The notes under the pieces are model-generated. The model did no database searches. It was not told where the DNA came from and worked only from the letters and a program-made list of their open reading frames with translations. The position numbers and the translations under genes were made by a program. Of a stretch of 64,000 nucleotides of DNA, positions 1 through 59,742 are shown one piece after another. Position 1 is the first letter of the stretch, and each line of letters starts with the position of its first letter. Source of the stretch: Chloranthus sessilifolius (lineage: Eukaryota > Streptophyta > Magnoliopsida > Chloranthales > Chloranthaceae); NCBI GenBank assembly GCA_021018995.1, contig CM037593.1, positions 4,306,088 through 4,370,087 on the forward strand. Reading direction: 5' to 3'.

Positions 1-223
1 TGAGAGACTTGCTTCAGTTGAAGCACGCATTTTACCTGCACCTAGAGTAAGTAAAGTGACGTATGCGATTTCATCATTCCCTAGTTGCCACCTCTGCTTT
101 TGAGTGCTTTATAGTGATGTCTGTAAATTATCCTTATGGGTTAATGTGCAGCTCAAATACCATGACACTGGTAGAGAGAAGGATTGTTTGCCTCAAGTGG
201 GTCAGTGGAATATGATGAACAAG
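1..223 (+). pseudogene. Argonaute fragment, two exons (PAZ-PIWI linker)
   Basis: Exon 1-46 reads ERLASVEARILPAPR and is followed by a GTAAGT donor. Exon 152-223 has an AG acceptor, reads [20 protein letters not shown] plus MMNK, and ends at a GT donor. Both strings are the conserved linker between the PAZ and PIWI domains of plant AGO1/AGO5/AGO10-type Argonautes, the small-RNA-binding slicers of RNA silencing. The next expected exons (MID domain, early PIWI) are missing; the gene resumes at 4128. The intron is retained, so this is a DNA-level copy and not a processed transcript. No start or stop, so it is read as a captured, non-functional piece. Confidence 0.88.
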
Positions 224-813
224 GTATTTTGTGCTTTAAGTTTGTCTTTTCAATTTAATGTGTATTTTTTATTTAATATAAAATAAAACTGAGAGTAGGT
301 ATCTGAAATCGATCAACTTTTAAGTTAGTTATTTTATTTTATTATTATTAATTTTTTTTGAAACTGGTAAGTTTTATTCACAGAGGGTGCGAATAGAGGT
401 ACCCAAGGGAAATAAGGTTTTATGTCAGACAAGAAAGTAGACTAAGGTGCAAGCTGGGATGAAGTAGAAGCTGAAAGAAGAGTGAACTAATTGAACTAGG
501 AATAAATCAGTGATGGAAAAAATTTACCTCATATCTCAAAATTTGGGAAATTAAGCTATCGGAACTGTGGCATGACTCAAGTCAGATCTCAAGAAGGCAA
601 TAAGGCGACTTTAGAAACATCATAAAAAATGGCTAGTTGTCTTTGCTTTTCCGAAGTCAAGGTTACTTAAAGGATTATTCTTGAATCATAATTTGATTGT
701 TAGAATTTAGGGATCTTCCATTGATCCCAATTTCCATAAATTACATCCAGTACCTTTAGATTTGTTTTTAGTTGTGATTTGCCCTACTATGTTATTATAT
801 AGAGATCAAAATT

Positions 814-947
814 TCTGTTTTGTAGTTATCTCAGAAGACATGGTGAAGGATGGGTATGAAGATATAATGAACATTGACATATCAGCAGTTGCCATTGACA
901 TGATGAAAAGGAAATATGCAGAAGTTCCTCAGTTGAAATGTATCCTC
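814..947 (+). pseudogene. METTL13-like methyltransferase exon, copy 1
   Basis: After a TTTTGTAG acceptor (exon from about 826) the frame reads EDMVKDGYEDIMNIDIS, then [18 protein letters not shown]. This matches the early part of the SAM-binding fold in plant METTL13/EEF1A-lysine-methyltransferase-like proteins: the acidic residue at the end of strand beta-2 (NIDIS) and the YEEIPQLKY segment. A possible GTATCC donor follows at about 942. The catalytic core that should follow is absent. Bases 814-913 recur exactly at 4984-5083. Captured exon, not a gene. Confidence 0.75.
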
Positions 948-1555
948 GTCAAATGAAATCTTGTTGTTGATTTCAAGTTGTGTTGGAAACAGTCTCATAA
1001 ATGCACAGAAGCGCGATGATAGGATGGTTTAAATTCTGCGATCAGCATGTCCTTTAGGCCAAGTCCCATCTACAGATGACCTGTCACTTGGACATCTCAG
1101 ATTGATGACAGTGCGTGCCATATGTATGTATAGTTGGTCCAACAACCACAGCTGGTGCTTGGTGCTGAGTCTCCTGACACCTACTCTGATTCCTATATAT
1201 ATGTTTACATAGGTGTGCACATGCATGTGTGTGTGTGTGCATGCGTTCACATAATCACGTTGTAGCTGCTAAGTCACATTGGGACCAGAATTGGCTGAGC
1301 TGGTTTCCAATATTGAGTAATCTGTAAAGTAATGTTAGCACTGTCTTTTTGCCCTCATAGGAAGCAGGGAAATGCTAACAAAATTGTGTGTATCAAATTA
1401 TTTCATTAATTTTTCTAACAAACAAGGTTCACATAATCACATCGTGACTTCTAACTGCTAAGTCATGTTAGAACCTGTAAACTTATGTTGGTAATGTCTT
1501 CTTGCTCTCATAGGAAGCAGGGAAATGCTAAAAAATTGTGTTGTATGACAGGAGG

Positions 1556-1929
1556 GATCAGAAAAACCAGATAAAATCATTAGTTCAAACTTGAATTTCT
1601 CTGGGAGGCTTAGTTCTGAGGCAAGCAATGGAAACACTGATGTTTATATTAATGGCCGAGAAATTACAAGGATTGAATTGAAAATTCTAAAGGTAGACCT
1701 ATTAGTCCCCTTAAGCTGGAACTTTGCTCTCTCTCTATAGATACGATATTGTTTGAAATTTTATTTATTTCAATCTGTTATCAACGTGAAATAGAGATTG
1801 ACAGGTTATGTAATGTTTTTTTTCCGCTTTAAAGTGCAATGTCCACGTGGAACACATTTCTGGGTCTATGATGATGGTAGCTATGAGGAGGAAGGTCAGA
1901 ATAACATCAGGGGGTACATTTATGAAAAG
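1556..1929 (+). pseudogene. XLG (extra-large GTP-binding protein) fragment, two exons
   Basis: The first part (about 1556-1691) reads on to [18 protein letters not shown] and TRIELKILK. The second (about 1834-1929) reads [19 protein letters not shown] then [13 protein letters not shown] and ends at a GT donor. Plant XLG proteins carry this motif pair, NGREIT-R-EL and (G)VQC..-HFWV-DGSYQEEGQ-N-G-IW-K, upstream of their G-alpha domain. The G-alpha domain itself is not seen here. The order and the intron position between the two exons fit XLG genes. A hAT MITE is inserted 10 bp after the last donor. Confidence 0.75.
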
Positions 1930-1947
1930 GTACAGACAACTATCACT

Positions 1948-2339
1948 TAGGGATTCAAGCTTCGACCCGAAACCGAACCAAAAACCGAGCGAACCTAACA
2001 TGCCTGAAACCGATTGGACCGATCTGCATCAATCGATTCTCGGTTCGGTTCGATTTTGGTTGTGACTAGAAAAAATCGTAACCGAATGTGTAGGATGAGA
2101 AAACTGAAAAAATAAAAAATAAAACCCGTAAATAACCGAAAAAATACTTTAAAATAAAAATATAACAAAAAAAATCGAAACTGAACCGAAAAAACAGAAA
2201 TATTTTTGTTTCGGTTGTGGAAGTTTGGAATTCGGTGCACCGAAACCGATTTCATTTCGGTTTGGAATCGGTTTATATTGAACTGACCCAAAAACCGAAA
2301 AAATGGGTTTCGCTTCGGTACATCAAATTTGCATCCCTA
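1948..2339. mobile_element. hAT-type MITE with 8-bp duplication CTATCACT
   Basis: This 392-bp element is bounded by exact 8-bp copies CTATCACT (1940-1947 and 2340-2347), the duplication length of hAT elements. Its ends are TAGGGATTCAAGC and, inverted, TAGGGATGCAAATTTG, an imperfect terminal repeat. The inside is a low-complexity run of AACCGAAA/TTCGGTTT words. It sits in the intron just after the XLG donor. It resembles the MITE at 63588 only in the TAGGG end. Confidence 0.8.
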
Positions 2340-3117
2340 CTATCACTATAGGATGCAAATTTTAACACCACAAAGAATGTTAATGCTAGTTCACGTGTCC
2401 ATAATGGATCTATAAAGTATAATCCTGTGTAAAATTGTTTGGATATGGTTTTTGTCAGACAGCAACACGGATTTGACTTTAGATACTGACAGGAACAGTC
2501 TGTGATAATGCAAATCCTCTACCTCTTGGTGTTAATTCTCTCTATTTAGGTGACCTGATGTGGCCTAATTTTTGTTTTCCTAAGTAGAATAAGGCTGTTG
2601 GAATACCTTATCAGCGCCACTCTGATCATTTGTTTACTTCTATGTATGATAAAAGGTTGGAGGGAGGAACTTACTATACTCTATTACTGCTGATTCTGGA
2701 TAATTGAAATACAAGAGAACTTTGAATTCTCGTCAAATGTCTTATAGTTGATGAAACTTAAAAGTCAAATTCTTTCATTTTGTACATAACTCAATATATT
2801 TCTTTTAGTTACCCCTGAATAGAAGATAAATCAATTGGGAAAAAGAAGAACAAGTTGCTTTTGTACATGAAGTTAAGTGCTTATCCATTTTCTTTCACTT
2901 TCAGTGATGGATACAGAGTAATTAATGTGGAGATAGTATTGGGTGGAGGAGGTCCTCACTGGTCCTCTTTAGCTTTTAAGAGAACCAGTCTTACAAAGCT
3001 GTTTCCTTGCTTTTCTATGCTATTATGGATTTTTCTTGTGTGTTTTTTTAAAGTATATGAGTGGATGTTACCATAGGAGTTTGACTGATGCTGTTTATCC
3101 TCCTATTAATATAATAG

Positions 3118-3194
<77 letters not shown>

Positions 3195-3734
3195 ATCAAG
3201 GTGTTATCTATGACATCAAGAATCTGAGTGAATAACTCATCTTTTCAAAATTTGTGATTTTTTTGGGGGTATTTGAATTCAACTGGGTTCATAACCTCTT
3301 TCATAAAAAGACACCTTTTGCTTCTTATTCCCTTGCTCTTGTTCTTCTTCTTTGTGTATTTTTTTTCATGGGTTTTTCGTGTTGCAGGTACAACAGTGGA
3401 TTCTGGAAGTATAGCTCTAGAATTTGGCTTGCGGTGTGTAGATCGAAGCAACCCGACCCTCTGTTTCGTATCACAGTGTCTTATTATTGATCTGTTAATT
3501 TTAGTTTGAAATTCAAGAATTTTTATGGAAATGTGAATAATTTTTATTGATTTGTTAAATTTTTTGGAAATGAGAGTGAACTTAATATTCTGAGACTACT
3601 TTACACGAGGATGATCTGCTAAAGAAAATAAAGGTACTTAATTTGTACTAAAAGCTTGCTTTTATATGAGTTTTTTTTAGGCAATTAGGAATCATCATCT
3701 CTTAAAGAAAACCCACAAAATCATCATGTCTCAT
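2340..3734 (+). other. Unidentified coding-like pieces inside the Pack-CACTA
   Basis: From about 2497 to 2700 one frame reads NPLPLGVNSLYLGDLMWPNF, then one stop, then NKAVGIPYQRHSDHLFTSMY and DKRLEGGTYY; the composition is protein-like but I do not recognise the family. Around 3387-3490, after a TTGCAG acceptor, a frame reads TTVDSGSIALEFGLRCVDRS. It could be another exon. Separating them is mostly AT-rich DNA with a TA microsatellite. These are listed because they look like exon debris, not because a function can be given. Confidence 0.35.
3116..3191. repeat. (TA)n microsatellite
   Basis: About 38 TA dinucleotides in an uninterrupted run. The length is likely polymorphic. Confidence 0.95.
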
Positions 3735-4127
3735 TCATAGGTGTACAGAGATCAGAAACAGTTGCCATGGGTGATGTGATTATTCTGACAATGAGTACTC
3801 TTGATGGGTGGACTTCTGCTAATATAAAACTTCTAAAGCTAAGGTAAACAGTTGCACATCCTCGAAATGAATACTGTGCACTTCCTCGAAATGAATACTG
3901 GTTATTCACATCTGATAAATTGGATACTGTGCACTTCCTCGAAATGAATCCCCATACATACTTTTATATTTTTTCCATTTATTTTCCTTTCATCATCATT
4001 TCCACCAACAGATTTTTTCTTATTCAGGAAAAATGATGGATAAGAGTACAGGAGATATAGCAGCAGACCAGTATCATTAGTACAAGGTAGAGATTTTACA
4101 TGTTGGCTTATCATTTATGAGTTATAA
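3735..4127 (+). other. Unidentified exon-like stretch and short direct repeat
   Basis: After an AG acceptor near 3740 a frame reads GVQRSETVAMGDVIILTMST then LDGWTSANIKLLKLR, protein-like but not assigned. A roughly 20-bp phrase (tactgtgcacttcctcgaaa) occurs in this stretch and again about 50 bp later, a small direct duplication. The rest to 4127 shows no gene. Confidence 0.3.
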
Positions 4128-5374
4128 ATGATCCAAGATTTGTTTAAAGTCTGGCAAGATCCTGTGCGAGGAACTGTGACGGGTGGCATGATTAAGTATG
4201 TTCTTCTATGTTTTGTAATCTATGAAGTTGATGGATGATTTTTTTTAGAAACCTAATTAGTAAGACTGGTTTAAATAAGCTTATATGTTTTTTATTATTT
4301 TTGTCCAGGGAGCTTCTTATATCTTTCCGTAGAGCAACTGGACAGAAACCACAAAGAATCATATTTTACAGGTACATCATATCAACGATGTTCTTTTTTT
4401 AGAAATGAGGATCCTAATGATGCTATCATTACTCTCTTTGATTGGTTTAGACATAAGCTTAGTTACCAAAATCATCAATTTTTTTGAAAAAAACTTGTTT
4501 AGACACTTTTTTTGCATTGAATGTCGTAAACACGTTTAAAACGGGTCTTTTTAAAAAAACTCATATTTAAAAAAAATTAAGATTTTTATGATTTAAATGC
4601 GTATTTTTACGAATTTTTCCTTAAATGTTTCTCATTTTTTGTCAAAATAATACTTATTTTTTTAATGCTTTTTAATTATTTCCATTACTTTTTCCCAAAT
4701 GCTGTCACATTTTTTCTCTTTTAAAATTTTTGCTTTTCGACTTGGTAACGATGTACATAAAGATGGGTGATGGGTCCTATCTTTGGTGCATGCAACACAG
4801 CTTTTATTTAGCTTGTGGTTCGTACCTTCTTTTGTACCAAACAATGGTTACACAGTATCATTATATAAGTCCAACCACACTCTCGAATCATTCCTCACAT
4901 CTGTTTTTATTCTAATTTGCCTATCTTACGCTGCAGAGATGGTGTGAGTGAAGGGCAGTTTTATCAGGTCTTACTGTATATCCTCTGTTTTGTAGTTATC
5001 TCAGAAGACATGGTGAAGGATGGGTATGAAGATATAATGAACATTGACATATCAGCAGTTGCCATTGACATGATGAAAAGGAATTTTGCTGGAATTTTTC
5101 ACAGCCTTTTTTTTCCCAAACCCTGACTTGATCTCTATAGTATTATCTCCCAAAGTAAAGACAACATTTCCAATATCTTTAGAATGTGACATATTGAGTT
5201 GTTTCTTGTTATTGACTTCAGTTCTTTTTTACCTTCAGGCATGTGCTTCTCTTGAACCTAATTATCAGCCTCCGGTGACATTTGTGGTAGTACAAAAACG
5301 CCACCATACAAGGTTATTCGCGAACAACCATTCAGATCGCAATTCCGTTGATAAGAGTGGAAATATATTACCTG
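4128..5374 (+). pseudogene. Argonaute PIWI-domain fragment, four exons, interrupted by foreign exon
   Basis: Exon 4128-4195 reads [20 protein letters not shown] (+MIK). Exon 4309-4371 reads ELLISFRRATGQKPQRIIFY. Exon 4937 to about 4978 reads DGVSEGQFYQVLL. Exon 5239-5374 reads [20 protein letters not shown], then [20 protein letters not shown]. Splice sites and phases agree with a plant AGO1/5/10-type PIWI domain. The DG in RDGVSEGQ includes a catalytic aspartate of the slicer site, and the RHHTR block follows as in the family. Expected residues YELDAIRK after QVLL are missing, replaced by the methyltransferase copy at 4984-5083. The end of PIWI, with the last catalytic His, is absent. Probably from the same source gene as 1-223, with the MID region lost between them. 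Confidence 0.88.
4984..5083 (+). repeat. 100-bp exact second copy of the METTL13-like exon
   Basis: Identical base for base to 814-913, including the TTTTGTAG acceptor and the codons for EDMVKDGYEDIMNIDIS. The copy starts and stops abruptly and lies inside the interrupted Argonaute PIWI exon. Identity over 100 bp points to a recent copying event, for example filler synthesis during break repair using the first copy as template (inference). Confidence 0.95.
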
Positions 5375-5911
5375 GTAAGATATGATTCTTAATTGATTGA
5401 AAGAAGATGACATTTAGTCCTTTAAAAAATTGATTTTTGAGATGTGATTTATGCTGTTATTAATTCTGCCTCCTTGGTAACTGATGGAGCATGGAATTGG
5501 GAGGAAGATTAAAACTAAATTTCCCTAACTTCAAGGACTTGAGAATCACTTATATAATATAGAAAAGAGAAAACTTGAGATTACCGTAATCCCACTACAC
5601 CGTGTCTCTATTTTGTAGGTCCCGAGACCCAACTCAAGTAAGGAATAAAAATGAAAGCTGAAAATCACGATAGGAAATTTTGTGATTCGTGTTTCACGTG
5701 ACACACTTTCGACTATCTTTGCTCTCATATTTCTTCTCCTACTTCTCGAGATGTTAAAATCTCCTCCATATCTTTCTAGAATCTCAGATAGTATCGAAGA
5801 TTTAATTGCCAGCTGTCTTGGAATTTTGGCCCTTTTTTATGTTGAACAAATATAGCCACAATCTTATAGGGAGTCAGCTTTCTATCTTAATATAATTCCT
5901 GCTGATTTTTT

Positions 5912-6160
5912 TTAGAAGCCACACAAATCCCCCATATTTAAGATCTCTTTTTGGGCCTTATCTATGGCCTTAAAGTTCTTGAGCCTGCTCATCTTAGTCT
6001 TTTCCTTGTACTGCAACCACCTTCTAATGAAAGCCCTTGGGTATGTATCCCCCTTGAAACCTCCATGTGTCCTCAAATACAGCAATAATCCTCTCTGTTT
6101 TTCTGCATTCACTTCTTCATTTGAGTAACAGAGTGCTATCTTCCAAGACGTAAGCAACAC
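5912..6160 (-). pseudogene. Unidentified gene fragment, C-terminal exon
   Basis: The minus strand reads SNEEVNAEKQRGLLLYLRTH, GGFKGDTYPRAFIRRWLQYK, EKTKMSRLKNFKAIDKAQKE and ends ILNMGDLCGF with a stop. Basic, hydrophilic and clearly protein-like, with no transposon features. I do not recognise the family. It runs against the other fragments in this element, which are all on +. Could be a terminal exon, or an exon with chance read-through into its intron. Confidence 0.5.
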
Positions 6161-6400
6161 AAATTAATGTATAGTTGCATAAGCATAGTAAGTGCCTTCA
6201 ACAGAAAGCGGACACAATTTTATTAGCTCAATTTTAATATTAATGCGTTAGCTAAATTTTGCTAGTTTTCCCATCTATAATCATGCTTCATACTAAATGT
6301 AGAGTTCTCTCTAAATTAATTGCGAGGCTGTAGTGGATTCAAGATCTGCCATCCTACTGAGTTTGATTTTTATTAGTTACCCATTGGATTCTGTTTCTAG

Positions 6401-6632
6401 GTCTATATGAAACACACTCTGTAGACCATGGTTGGTTTCTTAACTCTGTAAGAGATAAAGGGCTCCAGGCTTTCGCTACGACATGTAAGGATCTTCGGGA
6501 GCTTCGGGTTTTCCCCTTGGATACCCGGGAAGACAGCGATGGACCCGTTTCGGACATGGTTCTTGTTGCGATTTTCGAGGGATGTAGGAAGCTCCGATCG
6601 ATCCTCTATTTCTGCCAGCAGATGATTAATAT
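6401..6632 (+). pseudogene. AFB4/5-like auxin receptor fragment (LRR region)
   Basis: One open frame from about 6430 reads [13 protein letters not shown], then [40 protein letters not shown] and [10 protein letters not shown]. This is the leucine-rich-repeat part of the TIR1/AFB F-box auxin receptors; the REDSDGPVS insertion is most like the AFB4/AFB5 branch. In the full protein this LRR solenoid binds auxin and Aux/IAA degrons. Only about 65 codons are present and the F-box is absent. The piece runs into unrelated AT-rich DNA after QQM, so it is a captured fragment. Confidence 0.85.
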
Positions 6633-6854
6633 GTCAGAATATGTTATGCATGTTTCTTTTGTAACACTGTAGCAAGAAAAAATGGGAGTCATTACTTGTA
6701 CACATAAATTTGTTGTGAATGAAATTGCGGTGTTGTGAATTAAAATTTATTTTTCTGAATGAGCTTTGAGCTAATGTAAATGAAAATGTGAGTATGTAAA
6801 TGCAGGTTATGGATTTTCATAAAAAATAAAAAAAAAAAATACAGGTTATAGCAT

Positions 6855-6975
6855 TTTTGGAGCAAAAAAAATTAAATAGCATTAAAAAAAATTAAATAGC
6901 ATTAAAAAAAATTAAATAGCATTAAATAGCATTATTGGAGCAAAAAAAATTAAATAGCATTAAAAAAAAAATTTA
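6855..6975. repeat. Short tandem A-rich repeats
   Basis: Units of about 20 bp built on AAAAAAATTAAATAGCATT, repeated five to six times with slippage. Lies just inside the CACTA subterminal region. Confidence 0.8.
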
Positions 6976-7303
6976 TTGGAGATCACTTATTGGAGACGGC
7001 TTTAAGCAAGCCGTCTCCAATAACATTAGATCACTTATTGGAGACGGCCAAAAGCCGTCTCCAATAATAAGAGATGACTTATTAGAGACGACTTTAAGGT
7101 GTCTCCAACATATCTTTGGAGACGGCCATATGCCGTCTCCAATAACCTTGACTATTAGGGACGGCTTCCATTTGGTCTCCAAAGACAATGGAGACGGGAC
7201 TATTTGAGACTACATGGAAGCCGTCTCCAATACTATTGGAGACGACTTAAACACCTTTGGAGACGGCCAAAAGCCGTCTCCAATAAGCACATTTTTTGTA
7301 GTG
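6965..7303 (+). repeat. CACTA subterminal repeats and right terminal repeat
   Basis: At least four palindromic pairs of TTGGAGACGGC and GCCGTCTCCAA with short spacers, near 6989, 7035, 7113 and 7256, then CATTTTTTGTAGTG at the end. In En/Spm-type elements such arrays are the binding sites of the TNPA-like protein. The outer element (12660-13062) has different motifs, so the two belong to different families. Confidence 0.85.
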
Positions 7304-7309
7304 TATTGA

Positions 7310-7943
7310 TAAGGAAAATGGTGCTAAAACTCAGAATAGTGGTATTGCAGTCACTACAACTGCTACAAGCTATTCCAATGCAAGAGATAAAAGCCCCGTG
7401 GCAGGAGAGATGACCCATTATAGTCGCTTAACAGAAATAATTGAGTTGACATATTCCGAGCAACTCAAGTATGTATTGTTCAAGTGTGATTGGGTTGATG
7501 TAACAACACAAGGCAAAGGTATTATGACCGACGAATTAGGATTCACATTGGTAAATTTTTCAAGATTATTGTTCCCTAGAAATCAAGCAATCAATGAACC
7601 GTATGTGTTGGCATCTCAAGCTAAACAAGTTTTCTATGTACAAGATCCAACTAAACCGGATTGGCATATCGTCGTCAACAATAGACCTAGGGACTTATAT
7701 GAGATGAGTGCACAAGATGATTCATTATTAGATAGAGACCCTTATGGACATCAACTACCAAATGACATTGAGAATGGCGATAATGATGTTGTCAATTGGG
7801 TGAGGAAAAATGAGTCTGGTGTAATTGTTGATGCACCTCCGCATACTCAAGTTGTGCACGACAAGCTCCTTCAGTCAATGTCATTGACGAGGGAGATGGA
7901 TCACATTAATGATGCTTCGTTTACCGAAGATGAGAGTGTATAA
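7310..7943 (+). CDS. CACTA transposase (TNP2-type) C-terminal part, DUF4216
   Basis: The frame is open from the Pack-CACTA boundary (DKENGAKTQNSGIAV...) through to the stop at 7943. Diagnostic phrases are GEMTHYSRLTEIIELTY, LKYVLFKCDWVDV, DELGFTLVNFSRLL and LASQAKQVFYVQDPTKPDWH. This is the DUF4216 domain at the C-terminus of plant En/Spm TNP2 transposases, followed by the usual acidic tail (NDIENGDNDVVNW). The catalytic RNase-H-like domain and its DDE residues are upstream and not in the window. Reading starts within the domain because a younger element interrupts the gene; an internal Met at 7398 is not a natural start. Confidence 0.9.
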
Positions 7944-9190
7944 TTCTTCTTTTGAAAGAAATAACATTGAATCTAATTCGACTCGTGGGATGGTGACTGG
8001 CTTGTATTGTTATCGGATTACTGTTGCTGTGGGTTAATGCTATAAGATGTGAACATAATATTGGACAAAATGATATATATGTACTGTTGATCCTCGTCAC
8101 ACGTATTACGACATTACTGTTGTCTTCTCCAATCTTTGATGTAAGGTGTGTTGATGTGTTACTTTAGTTGTTAAATACTCACGGGAAGGGCTGTTTTGAC
8201 ATAAATAATACACATATATTTATATAGTTTTGAGGGCAGGATTAATTACAGCCCTCAAAACATGCAAATCACAAACAATTAATATATAGGGATGGGATTT
8301 GACTTATAGAGAGTTTCATGCTGAATATTCTAATTATATTTACCATTGCTATAATACTATGGTTATAGACCAGGGTTTAGGATTGGTAGGTATGCAAAGA
8401 AATTCTGTGCTGATTTGGTTTAGTGTCAGTGTGTGTGTGTGTGTTTTTGATAACTAATGCACCAAAAATAAATTATCCTTCTTTCTCTTTGATAATTGAA
8501 TATAGTTGATTAATTGACTTGGTGGAAAATTTGAAGTAAATAAAATTGTTATAGAGAATTGTTGGAGGGGGCTCTATTTATAAGCACAGAGGAGCTATTG
8601 AAAAAAAATTGTAGTATGCCATGGCATAGTGAGTATGTCATGGCCATGATATACCTTAGTTGGCGATGGTATACTTTTTAAATCACATAGCTTATGTGAT
8701 TTATATATTTTCCATGGCATAAACATAATCACTTATGTGATGTGATAGCATCAGTTACAACACTGCATGTAATTAACTATAATTTTCGACATTCACATTA
8801 ATGAGTTAATTCTCCCCCTTGTTATTAACTTCACAACTGCAGTACTACACTTCAATGTAGTATCCTATTAAAGTAACTCCACAAATATGATGATGACATC
8901 AATATAATTAAGATGTCACCATCGGCTGCCTAGCATATGGAATTAGTTCATGAAGCATCACTTTGTTCTTGGTCCTCCCAACATTAGAATGCTCTAGTTT
9001 CTGTTTCCAGCGTTAAAACAAAATGATAAATGAGTCTCTTTCTTTTCCACACCTTCTAGCTGAAGACACCATGCTCAGCAAGAGAATGCACCTTCCCCTG
9101 TCAAAATCCCACCCTAGACACTTGTTGAGCGCTCATGTCTTCCTTCATGCATGAGACATACCAGGCCCTCATATATTTAATATATGTGAC
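7944..9190. other. CACTA interior without genes
   Basis: AT-rich DNA between transposase and hairpin. A short (TG)n run lies near 8430. Around 8615-8720 there is a cluster of ATGCCATGGCAT-like palindromic words and repeated CACTTATGTGAT. No coding region is supported. Confidence 0.5.
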
Positions 9191-18618: not shown

Positions 18619-18780
18619 CACTACAAAAGATAAGGCTATTAGCAGCAGTTTTTTACTATAAAAAATTGCCGCTATTAACAAAAAACCTATTTAGACTATT
18701 AGCGACAAGGGTATTAGCGGCAATTTTTTGCTAATAGCGATTGTTTATGGCTGGTGCTAATAATCTTATTTTTTGTAGTG
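18619..18780. mobile_element. CACTA-like MITE, copy 1
   Basis: 162 bp, ends CACTACAAAAGATAAGGCTA and TAATCTTATTTTTTGTAGTG, inner word TTAGCGGCA. Same family as seven other copies in the window. Duplication not certain. A similar site without the element exists at about 19880-19940. Confidence 0.8.
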
Positions 18781-20886: not shown

Positions 20887-21780
20887 CTAGTTCATCCTGA
20901 ACTTGGCCTGCAGATCATCTACTATGCCCCTGTCCAGTTGGAAACCCAGGGCAAGAATATCGTCGGAGATGGGTGGGTTCGACCCGAAAACTGCTTGGGC
21001 TATGTCGATGCGACCCGGGTTTTGGCTACCGAACGAGGCAAAAGCTACGGCATTGTCGGGACCCACATTTAATTGGAAGTGAATGAGACCTTGGGGGAAC
21101 ACGAATATCTCTCCCTTCCGAAGGGTCTTCGTAAAGAGTCTGTTATCGGGGTTAGAGGTAACGAAGCCCACATAGAGAGTGCCCTCAACGAGGAGAAACA
21201 TCTCCGAGGCTAGTGGGTGGGTGTGTGGTTGGTTGAGACCATAAGGCTCAAAGTCGATGCGACCCATGGCGACACCAAGAGTGTTGATCCCTGGAAATTG
21301 GTCCACAAATGCTAGTGTGGCAGAAGCCTTAAGCCTGTTTGAAGTATTCCCTGGCTGACCAAGCCCTGAGAACAAGAAATCGTTGGCAGTCACGTCCCTT
21401 GGGTTCTTGCAGATTCGCCCGTTCACCAACACTACAAAAGAGAGAGAGAAAAGAAACAATAAAAAAATGTGTTGAGATCATGATTTTAAATATCTGGCAC
21501 CGAATTTGATATAGGGTGAAATCGGCCAAATATGTGGCTGATATGCATCCAATAGGAGCCAATCATAACACAAAAAAAATTCCCTTTGGGCCATATTTTT
21601 TATTATTTTAAGTTATAAATATAATATTTTAATATTTTAAAACAAAAGAAGTAAACATTTACCATCAGGGTTCTGGACAGCAACACAAAAGTCCTGCAAC
21701 AGTCCAGGATCAGAAGCAAAAGTAAGAGAGGAAGAAAAAGCTAGGACAAGGAGACCAATCAAAAAGATTTGAACACCCAT
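20887..21780 (-). CDS. Germin-like protein GLP1 (exons 21780-21663, 21431-20887)
   Basis: Predicted 220-aa secreted cupin of the cell wall. Exon 1 (118 nt) encodes a signal peptide [19 protein letters not shown], then [17 protein letters not shown]; a GT donor and TTTTGTAG acceptor bound a 231-bp intron; the 545-nt exon 2 starts [11 protein letters not shown] and ends at a stop after KFRMN. Two Cys (DFC, RIC) can form the germin disulfide. Germin box 1 is [20 protein letters not shown] and box 2 [18 protein letters not shown], giving three His and one Glu of the manganese site. One N-glycosylation site (GNTSN). Where most family members have PRATE it has PLASE. Members may be superoxide dismutases or oxalate oxidases; activity cannot be read here. 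Intact, and paralogous to GLP2. Confidence 0.95.
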
Positions 21781-47119: not shown

Positions 47120-48917
47120 CTAGTTCATCGCGAACCTGGCCTGCAGATCATCTACTATGTTCTTGTCCAGTTGGAAACCCCGGACAAGAACATCATCGGA
47201 GATAGGCGGGCTCGACCCGAAAACTGCATCAGCTATGGTGGTGACACCCGGGTTTTGGCTACCGAACGCGGCAAAAGCTACGGCATAGTCGTGACCCACA
47301 TTTAATTGGAAGTGAATGAGACCTTGAGGGAACACAAATATCTCTCCCCTCCGAAGGCGCCTCCTAAAGAATCTGTTATTGGGGTTGGAGGTAACGAAGC
47401 CCACGTCGAGAGTGCCCTCCATGACGAGAAACATCTCCGTGGCTCGTGGGTGGAAGTGTAGTGGGTTGAGACCATAAGGAGCAAAGTCAATGCGAGCCAT
47501 GGAGACACCAAGAGTGTTGAGCCCTGGAATTTGGACTACATTTACTGCTGTCACATTAGACCCAACCCTGTTTGAAGTATTCCCTGGCACATCAAGCCCT
47601 GTGAAGAAGAAATCGTCGGCATTCACGTCCATTGGGTTCTTGCAGATAAACCCGTTCACGAGCACTACAAAAGAGAGAAAGAGAGAGAAAAGAAACATTA
47701 AAAAAAAAAATTGTTGAGATCATGCTTTTAAACATCCGGCACCGATACATCTAGGCCGATATGTATTGGGTTAACCCCGACTTGATTGATTCGATGTAGG
47801 TTGAAATCGGCCAAATATTGGGTCATATCAGCCTATATATGGCTGATATGTATCCAATATGAACCTATCATAACTCAAGAAATGCACTTTAAATCGGCTG
47901 GTTTGGCCAATTCCTATCCGCTATATCCGATGGGTATCAGCTTCAGACCCAATATGTATCCGTTTCAAAAAAGGTTTGTCAATTTTATGACGCATGTAGT
48001 GCACACCCACTAAATTGATAGACACACCGCAAGTTCGTAGGAGTTGGTGGGGTGCCACCGGCTACATATTATAAATGTCAGTGGGTGCCTCCAACTATAT
48101 ATTATAAGAGTCAACAGCAAGCAACCGATACTTGTTATCAGTGGCTTGCCCCCAACATGAATATATAACAACCCAGATGGAGGAAGATGATGAGAGGGTA
48201 AAAGTGGTTGTGGGCGTGCCGCATGGGCAAGGGTTGTAATTGGCTCATGGTTTGGTTGTCGAAGGAATTTGGACATAAATGATGGTTTCGGTGGACGTGC
48301 AGGTGGGAAGGAGTGATGAGTAAGGTACCAGGATATGTTGCAGTGGTCGTGGTGGCAGGTGACCACAGGTGGTGGTGGTGGCTTTTCGGGGAGCCGAGAT
48401 GGAGTAGCTAGTGGTGGAAAGCATTGCAGGTGATGGTGGTGAGCCATAGAGGATGTAATGGCTAACAAGTGTGGCATGTGGCGATGGTGGTTGTGCACTG
48501 TGGAGAAGGAGTCGTATCTCATTTATATATAGAGGGGCGCAAATAAAAAATGGTTCCTGTATTCGTGCCGACTTGTTTACTGAAAGCGCCCACCTAATGA
48601 TATATGGCAGTGTGGTGCGTGCTAGCACGCTTCCATTGAGGTAACCATAAAAAAATGGTGAAACTTAGGGTCCACTCCTACTTATTGCTCAGCTTATAAG
48701 GTGTAACTATCAGTGGCCTAACTTTTCAATGTGTGCAAATACTGGGGCCCTATTCGTAAACTCATCAAAGGAAAATTAAGAAGGAGATGCGAATATTTTT
48801 ACCTTCGGGGTTCCGGACAGCGACACAAAAGTCCTGCAACTGACTAGGATCAGAAGCAAAAGTAAGAGCAGAAGAAGCTAGGACAAGGAGAACAAGTAGA
48901 AAGATTTGAACACCCAT
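47120..48917 (-). CDS. Germin-like protein GLP2 (exons 48917-48803, 47664-47120)
   Basis: Predicted 219-aa secreted cupin. Exon 1 (115 nt) encodes signal peptide [18 protein letters not shown], then [19 protein letters not shown] donor, TTTTGTAG acceptor; exon 2 (545 nt) starts [11 protein letters not shown] and ends KFAMN-like (ARFAMN) and stop. Germin box 1 is [20 protein letters not shown] with the standard PRATE; box 2 [18 protein letters not shown]. The metal-binding three His and Glu, the Cys pair and GNTSN site are present. The 1,138-bp intron is five times that of GLP1, enlarged by a FAM-C block (47735-47975) and a GGTGGT-rich stretch (48010-48640). Both genes read intact; differences concentrate in residues 60-80 and around box 1. 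Function in the wall (SOD-like or structural) is inferred from the family. Confidence 0.95.
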
Positions 48918-51590: not shown

Positions 51591-52440
51591 GGTAGCCGCT
51601 CAAAGCCCGACTAGAATCTGGCCGAGCTCAGCCCAGCCCGAATTATTTTAAGGGAAAAGGTTGTGCTAGCCCAACCCAGCTTGAGTTCGATTTGGGCTAA
51701 ATGAAAAGCTGGTGCCCAGAAAGACTCAGGCTAAGCCCGGCATGATTCTAGATCCCGGACGGGAACGAGTCTTACTTCTAATAGTAAAAGCCTAATCGGG
51801 CCGATCAAAATCCCAACCCTAACCCTAGATCCCATCCGCAGCATGGAAGTTGAGAAACGCGAGGATTCAAAGGGGGAGGAGATTTGCGTACTCAAAAGCC
51901 CATGTATTCCACTGTTCGATTTTGTCTAATACACTACAAAAAATAAAATTATTAGCAGCAGTTTTTTGCAGCCAAAAAGTACCGCTATTAACAAAAAAAC
52001 TCTTAAAACTATTAGCGGCAATTTTTTTGTTAATAGCAGCGGTTTATGGCTGCGGCTAATAGTCTTTTTTTTTAAGTGATATACGAGTTGCACTCATTCA
52101 TAGCTCATGTTTAGCTAGCGGCTTGAACAGGACGGTCTTAAACCCGGCCCAGCCATACCCGACCCACAATGGGCTAGTTAATTATAAGCTAAGGAAGGTA
52201 AGCCCGACATATCAATGGGTTGGCATGGCCTGGCACAATTAGTGAGTCAAGCGGGGTATGGGCTAGTTCCAAAGGCCCAATTAAAAATAGGCCAATTTAA
52301 GTCCTACCCGAACCCGTCCTGAATCGATCAAATGAGTTCTTTTATATAGAAATTTATGGGCCAGCCTACGGCCAGACCTACAATGAGCCCAATATGAGCT
52401 AAGGTAGTTAGGCCTTATTCATAATGAGCTGGCTAGGCTC
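51590..52440. repeat. FAM-B unit, copy B
   Basis: Same word order as 26615-27340 and the 60-64 kb array. Interrupted by the MITE at 51932. Confidence 0.85.
51932..52078. mobile_element. CACTA-like MITE with ATA duplication
   Basis: 147 bp, CACTACAAAAAATAAAATTA to CTAATAGTC...AAGTG, flanked by ATA (51929-51931 and 52079-52081). The unoccupied form gtctaatagacgagttgca is present in other FAM-B copies (for example 62610), which confirms the boundaries and the 3-bp duplication. Confidence 0.92.
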
Positions 52441-52509
52441 GGACTGATTAGTAATCGGGGGACCGGGGCCAGATATCAGCTATCTCCAAGAGACTCGATT
52501 ATAAAGTCA

Positions 52510-53320
52510 CGTGGCACACATTAAGCTCAAATATGACTTTAGGGCCATATTTTTGGGATTTGTGCCATGTGGAATTGAATATTGATCATCTGGAGGTATA
52601 TTCGTGCATGGCCTCAAGATCCTTCATGTGAAAGATTGTAACGAAACACGAACTGCATCATTTGATTTAAAGCAATCAATAATTTTTGGAATGAGATTTT
52701 GGGATGGGCCTCTTTTCAGGATTCCGTGGGCAAATTTAAAGCTAACCTAATACAATTTTATCACACTTCTGTCTCCACCAAATCTGAAAGCGGATAAATT
52801 CAAAGTTGGCACCTCTAAACTAATTTTGTAATGTCTTCAAAATTTCATATAAATGCCTTATACGGGATAGGCTCCTAGATGGGGTCTGTTATCCTTTGTA
52901 TCTACATGTTGTAGATGGAATCCCGGTTTTACATTTTGGGTAACGGTCAGGTCCAACTAGTTAAACGTGATTTCATGTTCAACTGAATTTAGAGCCATTG
53001 GATAGCATAGAATCTTGACTTTTGCGATTTTCATTTTATTAAAATCGTAGGGGTTTGAGTAATAAAATATCCCAGCTCCCCCATTTCTTATTTTCAAGTT
53101 GTTTTGCAGTCTCGGTTGTATATATTTATAATGCGCCATGACAGCCCATTTAGAGATAATCTTAAGAGCCATGAGTGCCCCAATATCAGGCCACATGGCA
53201 CATGCTTTTAAGCAATCTAAGTTGTCAATATGGTAGGTCCTACATTGAGCTGAAAAGGACCCAGAAATCGTACTCATCGGGCCGGGGGCCCAGAAATCAT
53301 ACTTTCGGTTGTATATATTT
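52510..53320. repeat. FAM-A copy and FAM-C-like flank, copy B
   Basis: 52510-52690 is a close FAM-A copy of 27385-27545. 52690-53200 shows no gene. 53205-53320 aligns with 27720-27800 (gtcaatatggtaggtcctac). Confidence 0.65.
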
Positions 53321-53329
53321 TTGTATGTA

Positions 53330-53487
53330 CACTATAAAAAATGAGATTATTAGTGGCAGCCAAAAGCTGCCGCTATTAATAAAAAAACTGCCGCTAATAA
53401 TCTTAATAACTTTTAATAATTTTTTTGTTAATAACAGCAATTTTTGGTTGTAAAAAGTTGTCACTAATAGTCTTACTTTTTGTAGTG
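53330..53487. mobile_element. CACTA-like MITE in block B
   Basis: 158 bp, CACTATAAAAAATGAGATTA to TAGTCTTACTTTTTGTAGTG. The matching place in copy A (about 28310) is empty, so it inserted after the A/B split. Confidence 0.85.
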
Positions 53488-54979: not shown

Positions 54980-56560
54980 CCTTTTCTTTTTCTTTTTTTA
55001 AGTTTTTTGTGAGATTTGATTGGTACTTCAGTGATGTCATTGTTTTGACACACTGAAGTTGAGAAACTCGCCGAAGATGGCGTCGTCATCATCTTCGTAA
55101 CTAGGTGGAATTAAAAAGAAGAAGAAAAAGAAGAATAATAATAATCAAAAGAAGAAGTTGGAGCTTCGGGTGAGTCCATATTTTCATGAAAAATGATAAA
55201 ACATAATATGATATGCTAAAAGTTTCTTCAAGTAGTCCCTTCCTAACTTTCTCCATTATTTTCTAATGCCTCATGGAAATGCTAAAATAACTTTCTTCGA
55301 AAAAGATGCGGAATGCCACAATAGAGCAGTCTTAGATACACATTTTGCGTAGCACCGTGCAACTCTGCACCCAGAGCAGGTATTACCTACTCTAGCAAGG
55401 AGTTTACTTTTTTCCTTAATATAGCTTCACATCAGCACTATTGTGGGTAGCTAGGTTACCAAATGCGCTTCCGAGCCTAGGAGCTCCCCTCTAGAGCTCA
55501 ATGCGGCTCTTAGGCCTCAGGGAGCTATGCCAAACACACTACCGTCACACGATCACTTCCCAACTGTATTTTCATGTGACTTAAAGTGATCCAATTGAAC
55601 CGGTGAGAGTCAAATATTTGCAGGTTCTAGCACCATAGCGATAAGGGTTGAAACCGACCCGTGATCATAGCATACCCACAAGCGTGGTTCATATTCACTT
55701 TTTGGAACGTATGCCACGGAATTGGCATCTAACCATCGGATAGTAGTCCTTGATCTCAAGATCTATTAGTTGGGAGATTGGGACGAAAAATGATCTCCAT
55801 CGTCTGGTTTAAAGCAATCAATTGATCAAGCACTACAAAAAATAAGACTATTAGCGGCAGTTTTATTAACAAAAAACTGTCACTATTAGTCCTGTCGCTG
55901 TCAAAAACTATTGCTATTAGTCTTGCCGCCACCAAATTAAAATTGCCTTAACAGCAAGTGCCGCTAAAACACCTTATTTTTGTAGTGAAAATAATGTGGT
56001 AATAAAACCAGACTTTATTCATTATAGCAGGATGACACAAAAATAGTACGCTCATTTGAGGAAGATTCGGTTGAGGGATTTTATTTGTTTTTTATCTTTT
56101 TTAATTTTTTGATAGGTAAGTTGGGATCACACCTGCGAACTTATAATTGCAATATTGTCAAACATCCACACTGCAGCAGGCCCAAGCTCCCATTTTTCCC
56201 ATGAGGTTTCTTATGGGGTCGTCACCCCTCCATTGAGCTCATTTTCTATGATCTTAATGAAGAGATGAGCATCGGTGTAGCCGGGATCTTCTTCTAGTAG
56301 GGATTAGTAATGGTCGATAAATATTATTTAAAAATTTTATTATTTTTAAATATAATCTAAACAATGCATACGTGCTGATTTATCTGTTATCGATTTGATG
56401 TCTTATTGCTAATTGGAGATTTTCCCCAATTGTCCTCCAATTGTTTTTGTTTTAGGTAAGTTGTTATTATGGTTGTTAATATGGTGCATTTCAGCCCGCC
56501 TAAGCCCGGCTATAAAATATTCATATCTAATAAGATGCCCTGTCGGTATCAAACTAACCA
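54980..56560. repeat. Duplicated segment, copy C block 1
   Basis: 54995-55200 matches 46520-46700 (cttcgtaactaggtgga); 55210-55545 matches 44800-45130; 55675-55830 is FAM-A; 55995-56075 is a GLP 3'-end relic (cagactttattcattatagc); 56180-56330 matches 45625-45780. No GLP coding sequence. The order relative to copy B is partly rearranged. Confidence 0.7.
55831..55987. mobile_element. CACTA-like MITE in block C
   Basis: 157 bp, CACTACAAAAAATAAGACTA to CACCTTATTTTTGTAGTG, at the junction after the FAM-A copy. Copy B lacks it at 45415. Flanks AAG and AAA. Confidence 0.85.
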
Positions 56561-58154: not shown

Positions 58155-59742
58155 TGGTCTCCAATCCCAACTCTTTATGGTCTTAATGGATCCTCTCTAA
58201 CTATATCGGAGTTAGTAATATTTGAACTTGTTGCCTCCCAAAATGCTCTTCATGAGCTTGAAAAAACGTTCTTAAAATAAGGGATGAAGCTAAGAAATCC
58301 ATCAAGTTTATTATTGGCAATGGCACGAAAGTCAAATTATAGAAGGATCCTTGGTTGAGGGATTCTCCTCTCATAACTAGGTTTAGAAGAAGATTTGTCC
58401 TCCAAACTGAGATTGGTGAAGACGCGCTTGTGTCAGATATTATTCAAAATGGCGTTTGGCATCTTCCTGACCCTACTACATTGCGAATGCAACAAGTTTG
58501 GGATCTTATTCTGTCACATGAATTGTCTTTAATTCCTATCTAATAATGATGATGTAGTTGTTTGGTCGGCTAGTGCCTCTAAGAAATTTTCAATTAAATA
58601 GACTTGGAACTCTATCAGAAACTCAATTGCTAAAATTGGGTGGGATAAATTTATATGGAATAAATTGACAATCCCGGCCATGAACAATAAACTCATGACA
58701 ATTGAAAACCTCAATAAAAGAGGGTTGAATATTATCTCGAGATGCGTTTTATGTTGGAAAGAAGCTGAAGATAATGATCACCTATTCTTCAAATGCACAT
58801 TCACTAGTTGGATTTGGCGTTCGACTAGAGCTAATATCCGATGTAGTAAAACTGAATTGGGTAATTCCCAAGAGGAGGTCGAGGACCTTATGGAACGATG
58901 CAAGGGAGACAAACTATTGAGTTGTTCTGCTAAGATTTATTTTCTTCAGTTATATGGCACTGTTGGTAGGAACGAAATAGCAGGATCTTTGAAGGAACTT
59001 GCATCCCCCAAAAATCTTTACTCAGCAAGATTATGGAAGAGTTTCGATTAAGACTGAATGATGTTCTCACTACAAAAAATAAGACTAATAGCGGCAGTTT
59101 TTTATTAAAAAAAACTGCCGCTAATAGTCTTAATTTTTGTAGTGTTTGCTCACCAAACCAATCAAGTCCATTTGTACGAAATGGGTACGTCCTGCACTTG
59201 AGACGACAAAGCTCAATGTTATTTCTTCTTATTGCTCTGGTAAAGAGGGCATTGGTGGTTTGATTCGGGACCATGATGGCGAATTTCTTGGTGATTTCTT
59301 CTCTCCTTTTAACAAAAGAAATGCTATTACAAGTGACCTTAATGTTTTTTTATAGGGCATTCTTTTTGCGATGGATTTAGGCTGCATAAGACTTCAAGTG
59401 GAGACGACTTCGAGAATTGCTATACACTCTTTCAAGAGTGAATTTCTAAACCCTTGGCAATATTTGGGTCTAATAAGAGATATCAGAGGTTTATTTAAAG
59501 GCTTTCATCAAATCTCCTTTTCTCTTATTAGTAAAGAATGTAACAAGTGTGCTGATTTTATTTCTGTTTTAGACATAGATGCTAGCAATGTTGTTAGATG
59601 GAATAGTGAAGATTTCCTTCCTCCGTCTTTTACCTCTCTCTTGAGAGATGACTCTTTGATTTCTAATCAGTTGTAATCTCTAAGTTTTTTTTTTTAATAT
59701 AGGGTGAGGTCCCATCAACCTCAAGATGGCTTATCGAAAAAA
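58155..59742 (+). mobile_element. 5'-truncated LINE (L1-type) with zf-RVT and RNase H remains
   Basis: In order: 58290-58510 (PWLRDSPLITRFRRRFV, a post-RT segment); 58560-58830 the zf-RVT region (IWNKLTIPAMNNKLMTIENL, CVLCWKEAEDNDHLFFKCTF); 59150-59675 the RNase H domain (GGLIRDHDGEFLGDFFSPF, GILFAMDLGCIRLQVE, ECNKCADFISVLD). Several stops and frame changes, so dead. The 3' tail GGTGAGGTCCCATCAACCTCA and short A run match the LINE at 49200, one family. AGTTTTA flanks both ends approximately. Confidence 0.85.
59068..59144. mobile_element. Minimal 77-bp CACTA-like MITE inside the LINE
   Basis: Almost only the two arms: CACTACAAAAAATAAGACTA...GGCAG and their inverted copy to AATTTTTGTAGTG, with a loop of about 10 A/T. 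Flanks TCT and TTT. Shows that the ends alone were sufficient for mobility in trans (inference). Confidence 0.9.

Follow-up and report, generated by a model that had tools for sequence, protein, structure and literature searches.

A transposase-bearing CACTA element of Chloranthus sessilifolius that carries a mosaic of pieces from five host genes

Chromosome 10 of Chloranthus sessilifolius (GenBank assembly GCA_021018995.1, contig CM037593.1) harbors a transposase-bearing, now defective CACTA (En/Spm) element with transduplicated host gene fragments. Its right part lies in the 64,000-bp stretch analyzed here (positions 4,306,088 to 4,370,087; hereafter the window), and it contains pieces of five unlinked genes, including an Argonaute (AGO) gene and an AFB-type auxin receptor gene. 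Elements of this kind are already known, and this one records unusually clearly how its pieces were stitched together. How DNA transposons gather unlinked gene fragments is an unsettled question; here, the donors, the junctions, several copies in one assembly and a copy-specific patch acquired after capture make the competing models testable base by base. We consider it probable that the mosaic arose through transduplication by interrupted gap repair with template switching, in a CACTA ancestor that already bore the AFB piece, and then spread to four loci.

Window base 1 corresponds to C10:4306088 (C10 denoting chromosome 10, and so forth), and upstream positions run 0, -1, etc. The initial annotation of this DNA, which was made from the window alone, had noticed a clean CACTA right end at position 7303, and this end is indeed defined by a CACTA terminus, GGAGACGG/CCGTCTCC subterminal repeats and a TAT directly after it. 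It had also proposed that a leftward extension would reveal the other end with a matching TAT. When 40 kb of the host assembly left of the window were scanned for CACTA ends, a left terminus was found at window -8147 (L006:1853), with TAT just before it and the same subterminal repeats; it reads CACTACAAAAAAAAAGACTT and not, as predicted, the 17-mer CACTACAAAAAATGTGC. The element thus measures 15,451 bp (window -8147 to 7303), with the CACTA...TAGTG termini of the superfamily at both ends, the subterminal repeats close to both and TAT as its 3-bp target site duplication. All gene fragments that had been named lie between these ends: the earlier observation is real, and larger than first described.

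The sequences on either side also belong to a CACTA element. The left flank contains Transposase_21 and DUF4218, the right flank DUF4216, and when the flanks are joined with a single TAT, they can be aligned, at 69-72% identity, with the transposase region of the inserted element itself, one block spanning the insertion point. Since the joined flanks form one transposase region, the element must have inserted into the transposase gene of an older CACTA relative. This outer, interrupted element appears to span window -14447 to 13062, with AAC on both sides and CCGGC/GCCGG-type ends; without the insert, it would measure 12,056 bp.

The left 8148 bp (L006:1853-10000, window -8147 to 0) comprise the left end and a degenerate tnp2-type transposase, represented in Pfam by Transposase_21 (8.9e-64) and the three associated domains Transpos_assoc, DUF4218 and DUF4216. 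Transposase_21 is split over two frames and there is no single intact transposase frame; therefore, we read the gene as broken. Transposase_24, found in the second, TnpA-like CACTA gene, has no Pfam match in the window copy. It is present in a copy on C2 (4.1e-9), within about 1.55 kb that are kept by the C2 and C15 copies and have no counterpart here. The first Pfam scans of the window and the left half covered the plus frames only; the minus frames, scanned later, gave no plant-gene match and a single NapE match at E 0.044, below its cutoff. A 1.1-kb transposase stretch recurs at 94-98% identity in at least 39 other genomic places, with 40 of 697 candidates scored.

These domains bear on the class of the element, which had been called a Pack-CACTA. 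It does hold introns and exons of at least four, in fact five, unrelated genes between CACTA ends, none of them at its original locus. Pack-TYPE elements, as defined in PMC8903248, have no transposase match over 250 bp, and because a degenerate tnp2 transposase with all four domains lies inside the element, the Pack-CACTA label does not apply under this published definition.

From left to right, the cargo comprises AGO piece a, a repeat, a methyltransferase piece, an XLG piece in two blocks, a 20-bp filler, 42 bp of the AGO gene, a beta-glucosidase piece, AGO pieces b and c, an AFB exon and the right-end module (Table 1). The pieces of all five genes lie in sense orientation, and for each of these genes a parental or closely related locus was located. 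As the captured pieces include introns, genomic DNA was copied.

Four of the genes had been recognized in the initial annotation, and each now aligns to a parent or relative. The Argonaute is represented in the window by a Piwi domain (Pfam 2.5e-9), and its peptide, joined by eye, matches the AGO10 structure 7sva at 2.2e-77. By sequence it is of the AGO1/AGO10 type, which we leave undivided. We rejected the notion that its exons belong to a gene standing at its original locus: all four AGO pieces derive from one chromosome-12 gene, which carries PAZ, ArgoL2 and Piwi exons. The methyltransferase piece has its parent on chromosome 1, at 96% identity; when exons of this parent were joined by eye, they matched Methyltransf_11 (7.6e-6) and PDB entry 2pxx (2.9e-9); single exons or frames gave weak or unrelated matches only, and the METTL13/EEF1AKMT4 label is our presumption. 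The G protein piece, which we take to be XLG, aligns at 94-99% identity to a locus in which a G-alpha domain lies immediately past the main block; it lacks about 1.08 kb of the parent between its two blocks, including the G-alpha exon, and its peptide has no PDB match. The AFB piece matches the TIR1 structure in PDB (5e-18) and is 93% identical over 189 bp to an AFB locus on chromosome 3. This parent exon came from a genome protein search, after an earlier tblastn against six AFB loci with 1.5-kb flanks had found no match. The fifth gene, unnamed before, is a GH1 beta-glucosidase: GH1 exons adjoin the matched stretch on C12, and one exon within it was recognized by eye. A (TA)36 tract occupies 3119-3191 of this piece, and TA tracts are found in the same region of related loci too.

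Table 1. Coordinates of the element, its cargo and its copies. Positions refer to the window unless a chromosome is given; TSD, target site duplication.
Feature	Position	Strand	Parent locus or remark
Right 7303 bp of CACTA element	1..7303	+	TAT on either side; joined flanks form a single transposase region
AGO piece a, two exons preceding the PIWI part	-217 (outside window), 1..281 in window	+	Parent C12:16532758-16532181, minus strand, 96-98%
Low-copy repeat, ~112 bp, bridging AGO and methyltransferase pieces	275..387	+	Other copies C2:42365936, C12:27826709, C12:16395840, 96-97%
METTL13/EEF1AKMT4-like methyltransferase piece (presumed label)	382..979	+	Parent C1:83863943-83863345, 96%
XLG (extra-large G protein) piece (presumed name), blocks 977-2472 and 2468-2608	977..2608	+	Parent C12:114298284-114295470
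Filler without identified source, 20 bp	2609..2628	+	
AGO gene, 42 bp	2629..2670	+	C12:16529385-16529344, 100% identical
GH1 beta-glucosidase piece with (TA)n tract	2668..4125	+	Related loci C12:5746126-5744688 (91%), C12:4930897 (90%), others; exact donor among several
AGO piece b, PIWI exons and introns	4126..6377	+	Parent C12:16528988-16525916, 93-96%
Second copy of 106-118 bp of methyltransferase piece, replacing ~774 bp of AGO	4984..5101	+	Window copy only, of four compared
AGO piece c, 65 bp, out of order, taken from a more upstream part of this AGO gene	6380..6444	+	C12:16534303-16534239, 94%
AFB4/5-like auxin-receptor exon	6437..6625	+	Parent C3 near 51686901-51687092, 93%
CACTA right-end module, GGAGACGG/CCGTCTCC subterminal repeats and terminus	6640..7303	+	
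Right copy of TAT target duplication	7304..7306	none	
Element copy, C10	-8147 to 7303		TSD TAT
Element copy, C2	C2:158520549-158535983		TSD CAG
Element copy, C13	C13:7237768-7245491		TSD AAG
Element copy, C15	C15:23352577-23363461		TSD AAT

Three further copies carry AGO pieces, each flanked by a perfect and different 3-bp duplication. The copy on C2 is nearly complete in its cargo, but about 2.1 kb of its transposase region are missing; on C15, AGO piece b follows directly on XLG sequence that breaks off at window 1166, the middle being gone; and what remains on C13 is the left part, a transposase stretch in inverted orientation, and the cargo from AGO piece b onward. Substitutions amount to 0-2.4% between copies and to 2.8-5.6% from the parents over the segments compared (AGO piece b, methyltransferase, XLG and three GH1 relatives). 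Since the copies are closer to each other than to the parents, capture preceded spread.

The AFB piece has a wider distribution than the rest of the cargo. A protein search found 36 matches in the genome, namely the four copies described here, six with long open frames, which we took as genes, and a remainder of 26, of which 18 contain no stop. In a search with the whole cargo, at least 16 places outside the four copies matched window 6434/6437 to 7302/7303, that is, the AFB piece plus the right end. Because this combination is common to many other elements, the AFB piece was probably gained before the AGO mosaic or independently of it. The right-end module also occurs without AFB, in a sister element on C6 described below. 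Pfam scans of the parts upstream of two AFB-type copies gave no match (L027 on one strand only). For a codon comparison, 10 of 16 sequences had a readable frame and nine were used (L034 was dropped), with 18 pairs reported. Relative to the window copy, the per-site nonsynonymous rate exceeded the synonymous one in five of seven element pairs, with the reverse in two (L033 and L038); relative to the parent gene, synonymous rates were higher throughout. Selection on the fragment was thus rejected, as the codon pairs reveal no consistent constraint. Separately, two AFB-type copies on C9, which are nearly identical to each other, have a sequence that matches an XLG exon at 75% immediately beyond their right ends (L031 2795-2931, in reverse-complement orientation, and L036).

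The junctions between the pieces retain traces of how the mosaic formed. The seven that were computed against the parents share 3, 4, 2, 3, 3, 0 and 4 bp, at least 3 bp in five of seven cases; random junctions reach this value in 6.3% of 200,000 draws from five donor or sister sequences (probability 0.063). At the junction computed as 2 bp, the alignment shows GGG. The 20-bp filler sits at the XLG-AGO junction. AGO piece a, the 42-bp piece and piece b are collinear with one gene on one strand, and piece c comes from upstream, out of order. In the window copy alone of the four, about 774 bp of AGO have been replaced by methyltransferase sequence, with ATCC (4 bp) inserted at one edge of the patch and GAA shared at the other; the C2 copy retains the AGO stretch that was lost here, with about 87 bp extra. 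No terminal 8-mer is left inside the element.

The microhomology at most computed junctions, the short fillers, the repeated use of the AGO gene and the copy-specific patch lead us to favor gap repair with template switching over tandem insertion. According to this scenario, an ancestor of a high-copy CACTA family, with the AFB piece already beside its right end, would have incorporated about 7 kb of the AGO gene, placed downstream of its own transposase genes. The AGO stretch would then have suffered breaks that were repaired by copying other loci, namely the repeat, the methyltransferase gene, XLG and the beta-glucosidase, with template switches at short microhomologies, that is, by interrupted gap repair after excision. 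The patchwork would then have moved between its ends to four loci, where the copies would have lost different internal stretches. The element most likely has no host function.

Several points weigh against this reconstruction. Gap repair is seen through its expected scars and not directly, and the junctions vary in what they contribute: the first of those computed (J1) sits in a T run where shared bases come easily, J8 shares no base, and J10 and J12 were not placed at the single-base level. The patch is 98% identical over 106 bp to the methyltransferase piece in the element and 97% identical to the C1 gene, and either could have been the template. The GH1 donor belongs to a cluster of loci, the divergence from the parents overlaps between pieces and thus yields no order of capture, and a right end without AFB was found in one sister only.

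The published model for Pack-CACTA elements is tandem insertion and remobilization (Catoni et al., 2019, as relayed in PMC8903248 and PMC13317346), in which two nearby CACTA copies lose their inner ends and move as one with the DNA between them. Such a history could account for the initial enclosure of a contiguous AGO stretch and for the joining of the family's left part to the AFB-bearing right module, and some linkage is possible, as about 130 kb separate the AGO gene from C12:16395840, one of the loci that may have supplied the repeat. However, the donors are located on C1, on C3, at three distant places on C12 and, for the repeat, on C2 or C12; the AGO gene was used four times; no internal terminus remains; and microhomology, filler and patch scars are not predicted by the model. 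On balance, we regard tandem insertion as an improbable origin of the mosaic. It is very unlikely that the fragments were assembled elsewhere, in another transposon or a rearranged locus, and then acquired as a single block. Further partial copies of the repeat and methyltransferase pieces do exist on C2, C6, C12 and C14, but with 40 of 2809 candidates scored in the search with the whole cargo, all strong matches to AGO came from the C12 parent or one of the four CACTA copies, with no mosaic found beyond these loci. Weaker matches to the AGO region also occur, for example at C2:179744873 and C10:18176014. A 2026 review further allows, in its section 7, that an undiscovered mechanism of gene-fragment capture may remain (PMC13317346).

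The element has sisters with other cargo. One on C6 (C6:101267881-101283012) is full-length, with 15,132 bp and the target site duplication CAA, and contains pieces of DXP synthase (Pfam 1.1e-4), DUF707 (0.0021, below the Pfam cutoff) and cystathionine gamma-synthase (Pfam 0.0025, below the cutoff; PDB 2.1e-6), all in sense. Another, from C13:13096658 onward, has kinesin, RRM and kinase pieces, likewise all in sense (L048, C13:13103500-13109500); no right end was recognized in the 6 kb examined, and a SOSEKI match at E 0.083, also sense, was left out of the count. In a third, at C9:57225699, a DUF247 piece lies in antisense (L070, C9:57221700-57223300). All eight captured genes are thus sense in the two elements with proven ends, and 11 of 12 when the C13 and C9 sisters are included. 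The antisense DUF247 piece rules out a strict sense rule and leaves a tendency on a small sample; the family seems to collect gene pieces repeatedly, and mostly in sense.

Argonaute proteins act in gene silencing, and the AGO cargo offers a concrete instance in which to ask whether a transposon is affected by the silencing genes that it has captured. Transcripts of the cargo might give rise to small RNAs that dampen the parental AGO or AFB genes and so help the element escape silencing, in the manner of miR820. The pieces do share perfect sense 21-mers with their parents (AGO 1351, XLG 949, GH1 426, methyltransferase 327 and AFB 31; parents were oriented by the match, and the coding strand was taken from domain matches and reading frames), but the number of shared antisense 21-mers is zero, every piece being sense. 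Among the 25 longest of 86 inverted pairs in window 1-9000, there is neither an inverted repeat of a captured gene nor a miR820-type hairpin precursor, the left half not having been searched for hairpins; Rfam gives no match at the gathering threshold in window 1-7303, and the AFB codons show no consistent constraint. The evidence at the sequence level lends no particular support to an effect of the cargo on AGO or AFB, and we think such a role highly doubtful. We give even less credence to a broader proposal, in which the family serially collects mostly sense fragments by interrupted gap repair and the AGO lineage would be favored because decoy or small interfering RNA transcripts lower the AGO1-type gene.

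Several known systems resemble the element in part. In rice, a CACTA-borne miR820 lowers OsDRM2, and its precursor stem resembles an OsDRM2 intron (PMC3459959); both elements contain sequence from a silencing gene, but here the sequence comes from an AGO gene, and neither a hairpin nor an antisense piece was found. Tgm-Express1, a soybean CACTA element of 5.7 kb, likewise holds introns and exons of five unrelated genes between CACTA ends, with the fragments spliced as exons in one transcript (PMC1947982). The account of Tgm-Express1 in that report names no transposase, whereas the present element has 15.45 kb, transposase domains, four copies and traceable junctions. Pack-CACTA elements, which in maize hold the most distinct loci (PMC8903248), also combine fragments of several loci between CACTA ends; unlike in these Pack-TYPE elements, a transposase is present here, though broken, and the junctions fit template switching better than tandem insertion. 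CACTA-like elements of Chenopodium possess transposase-region domains plus Neprosin and AP2 fragments, for which a mechanism by Rubin and Levy is invoked (PMC8978399). Their fragments are described in the 5' region before open reading frame 1, in contrast to the pieces of five donor genes found here 3' of the transposase region. Finally, maize Helitrons accumulate several gene fragments in one element stepwise (PMC3288121), but belong to another transposon class, whereas CACTA ends and 3-bp duplications are seen here. Our literature search, which covered titles and abstract openings, found no case in which a CACTA or Pack element had captured an Argonaute gene, though this does not prove that none exists.

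The remainder of the window includes a 1,556-bp CACTA-ended element at 51932-53487 with ATA on both sides, as well as smaller stretches with similar ends and no matching flanking triplet at 18619-18780, 55831-55987 and 59068-59144. Two related open frames of 196 and 199 amino acids lie on the minus strand at 20887-21477 and 47120-47719; judging by eye, we take them to resemble germin-like (cupin) proteins.

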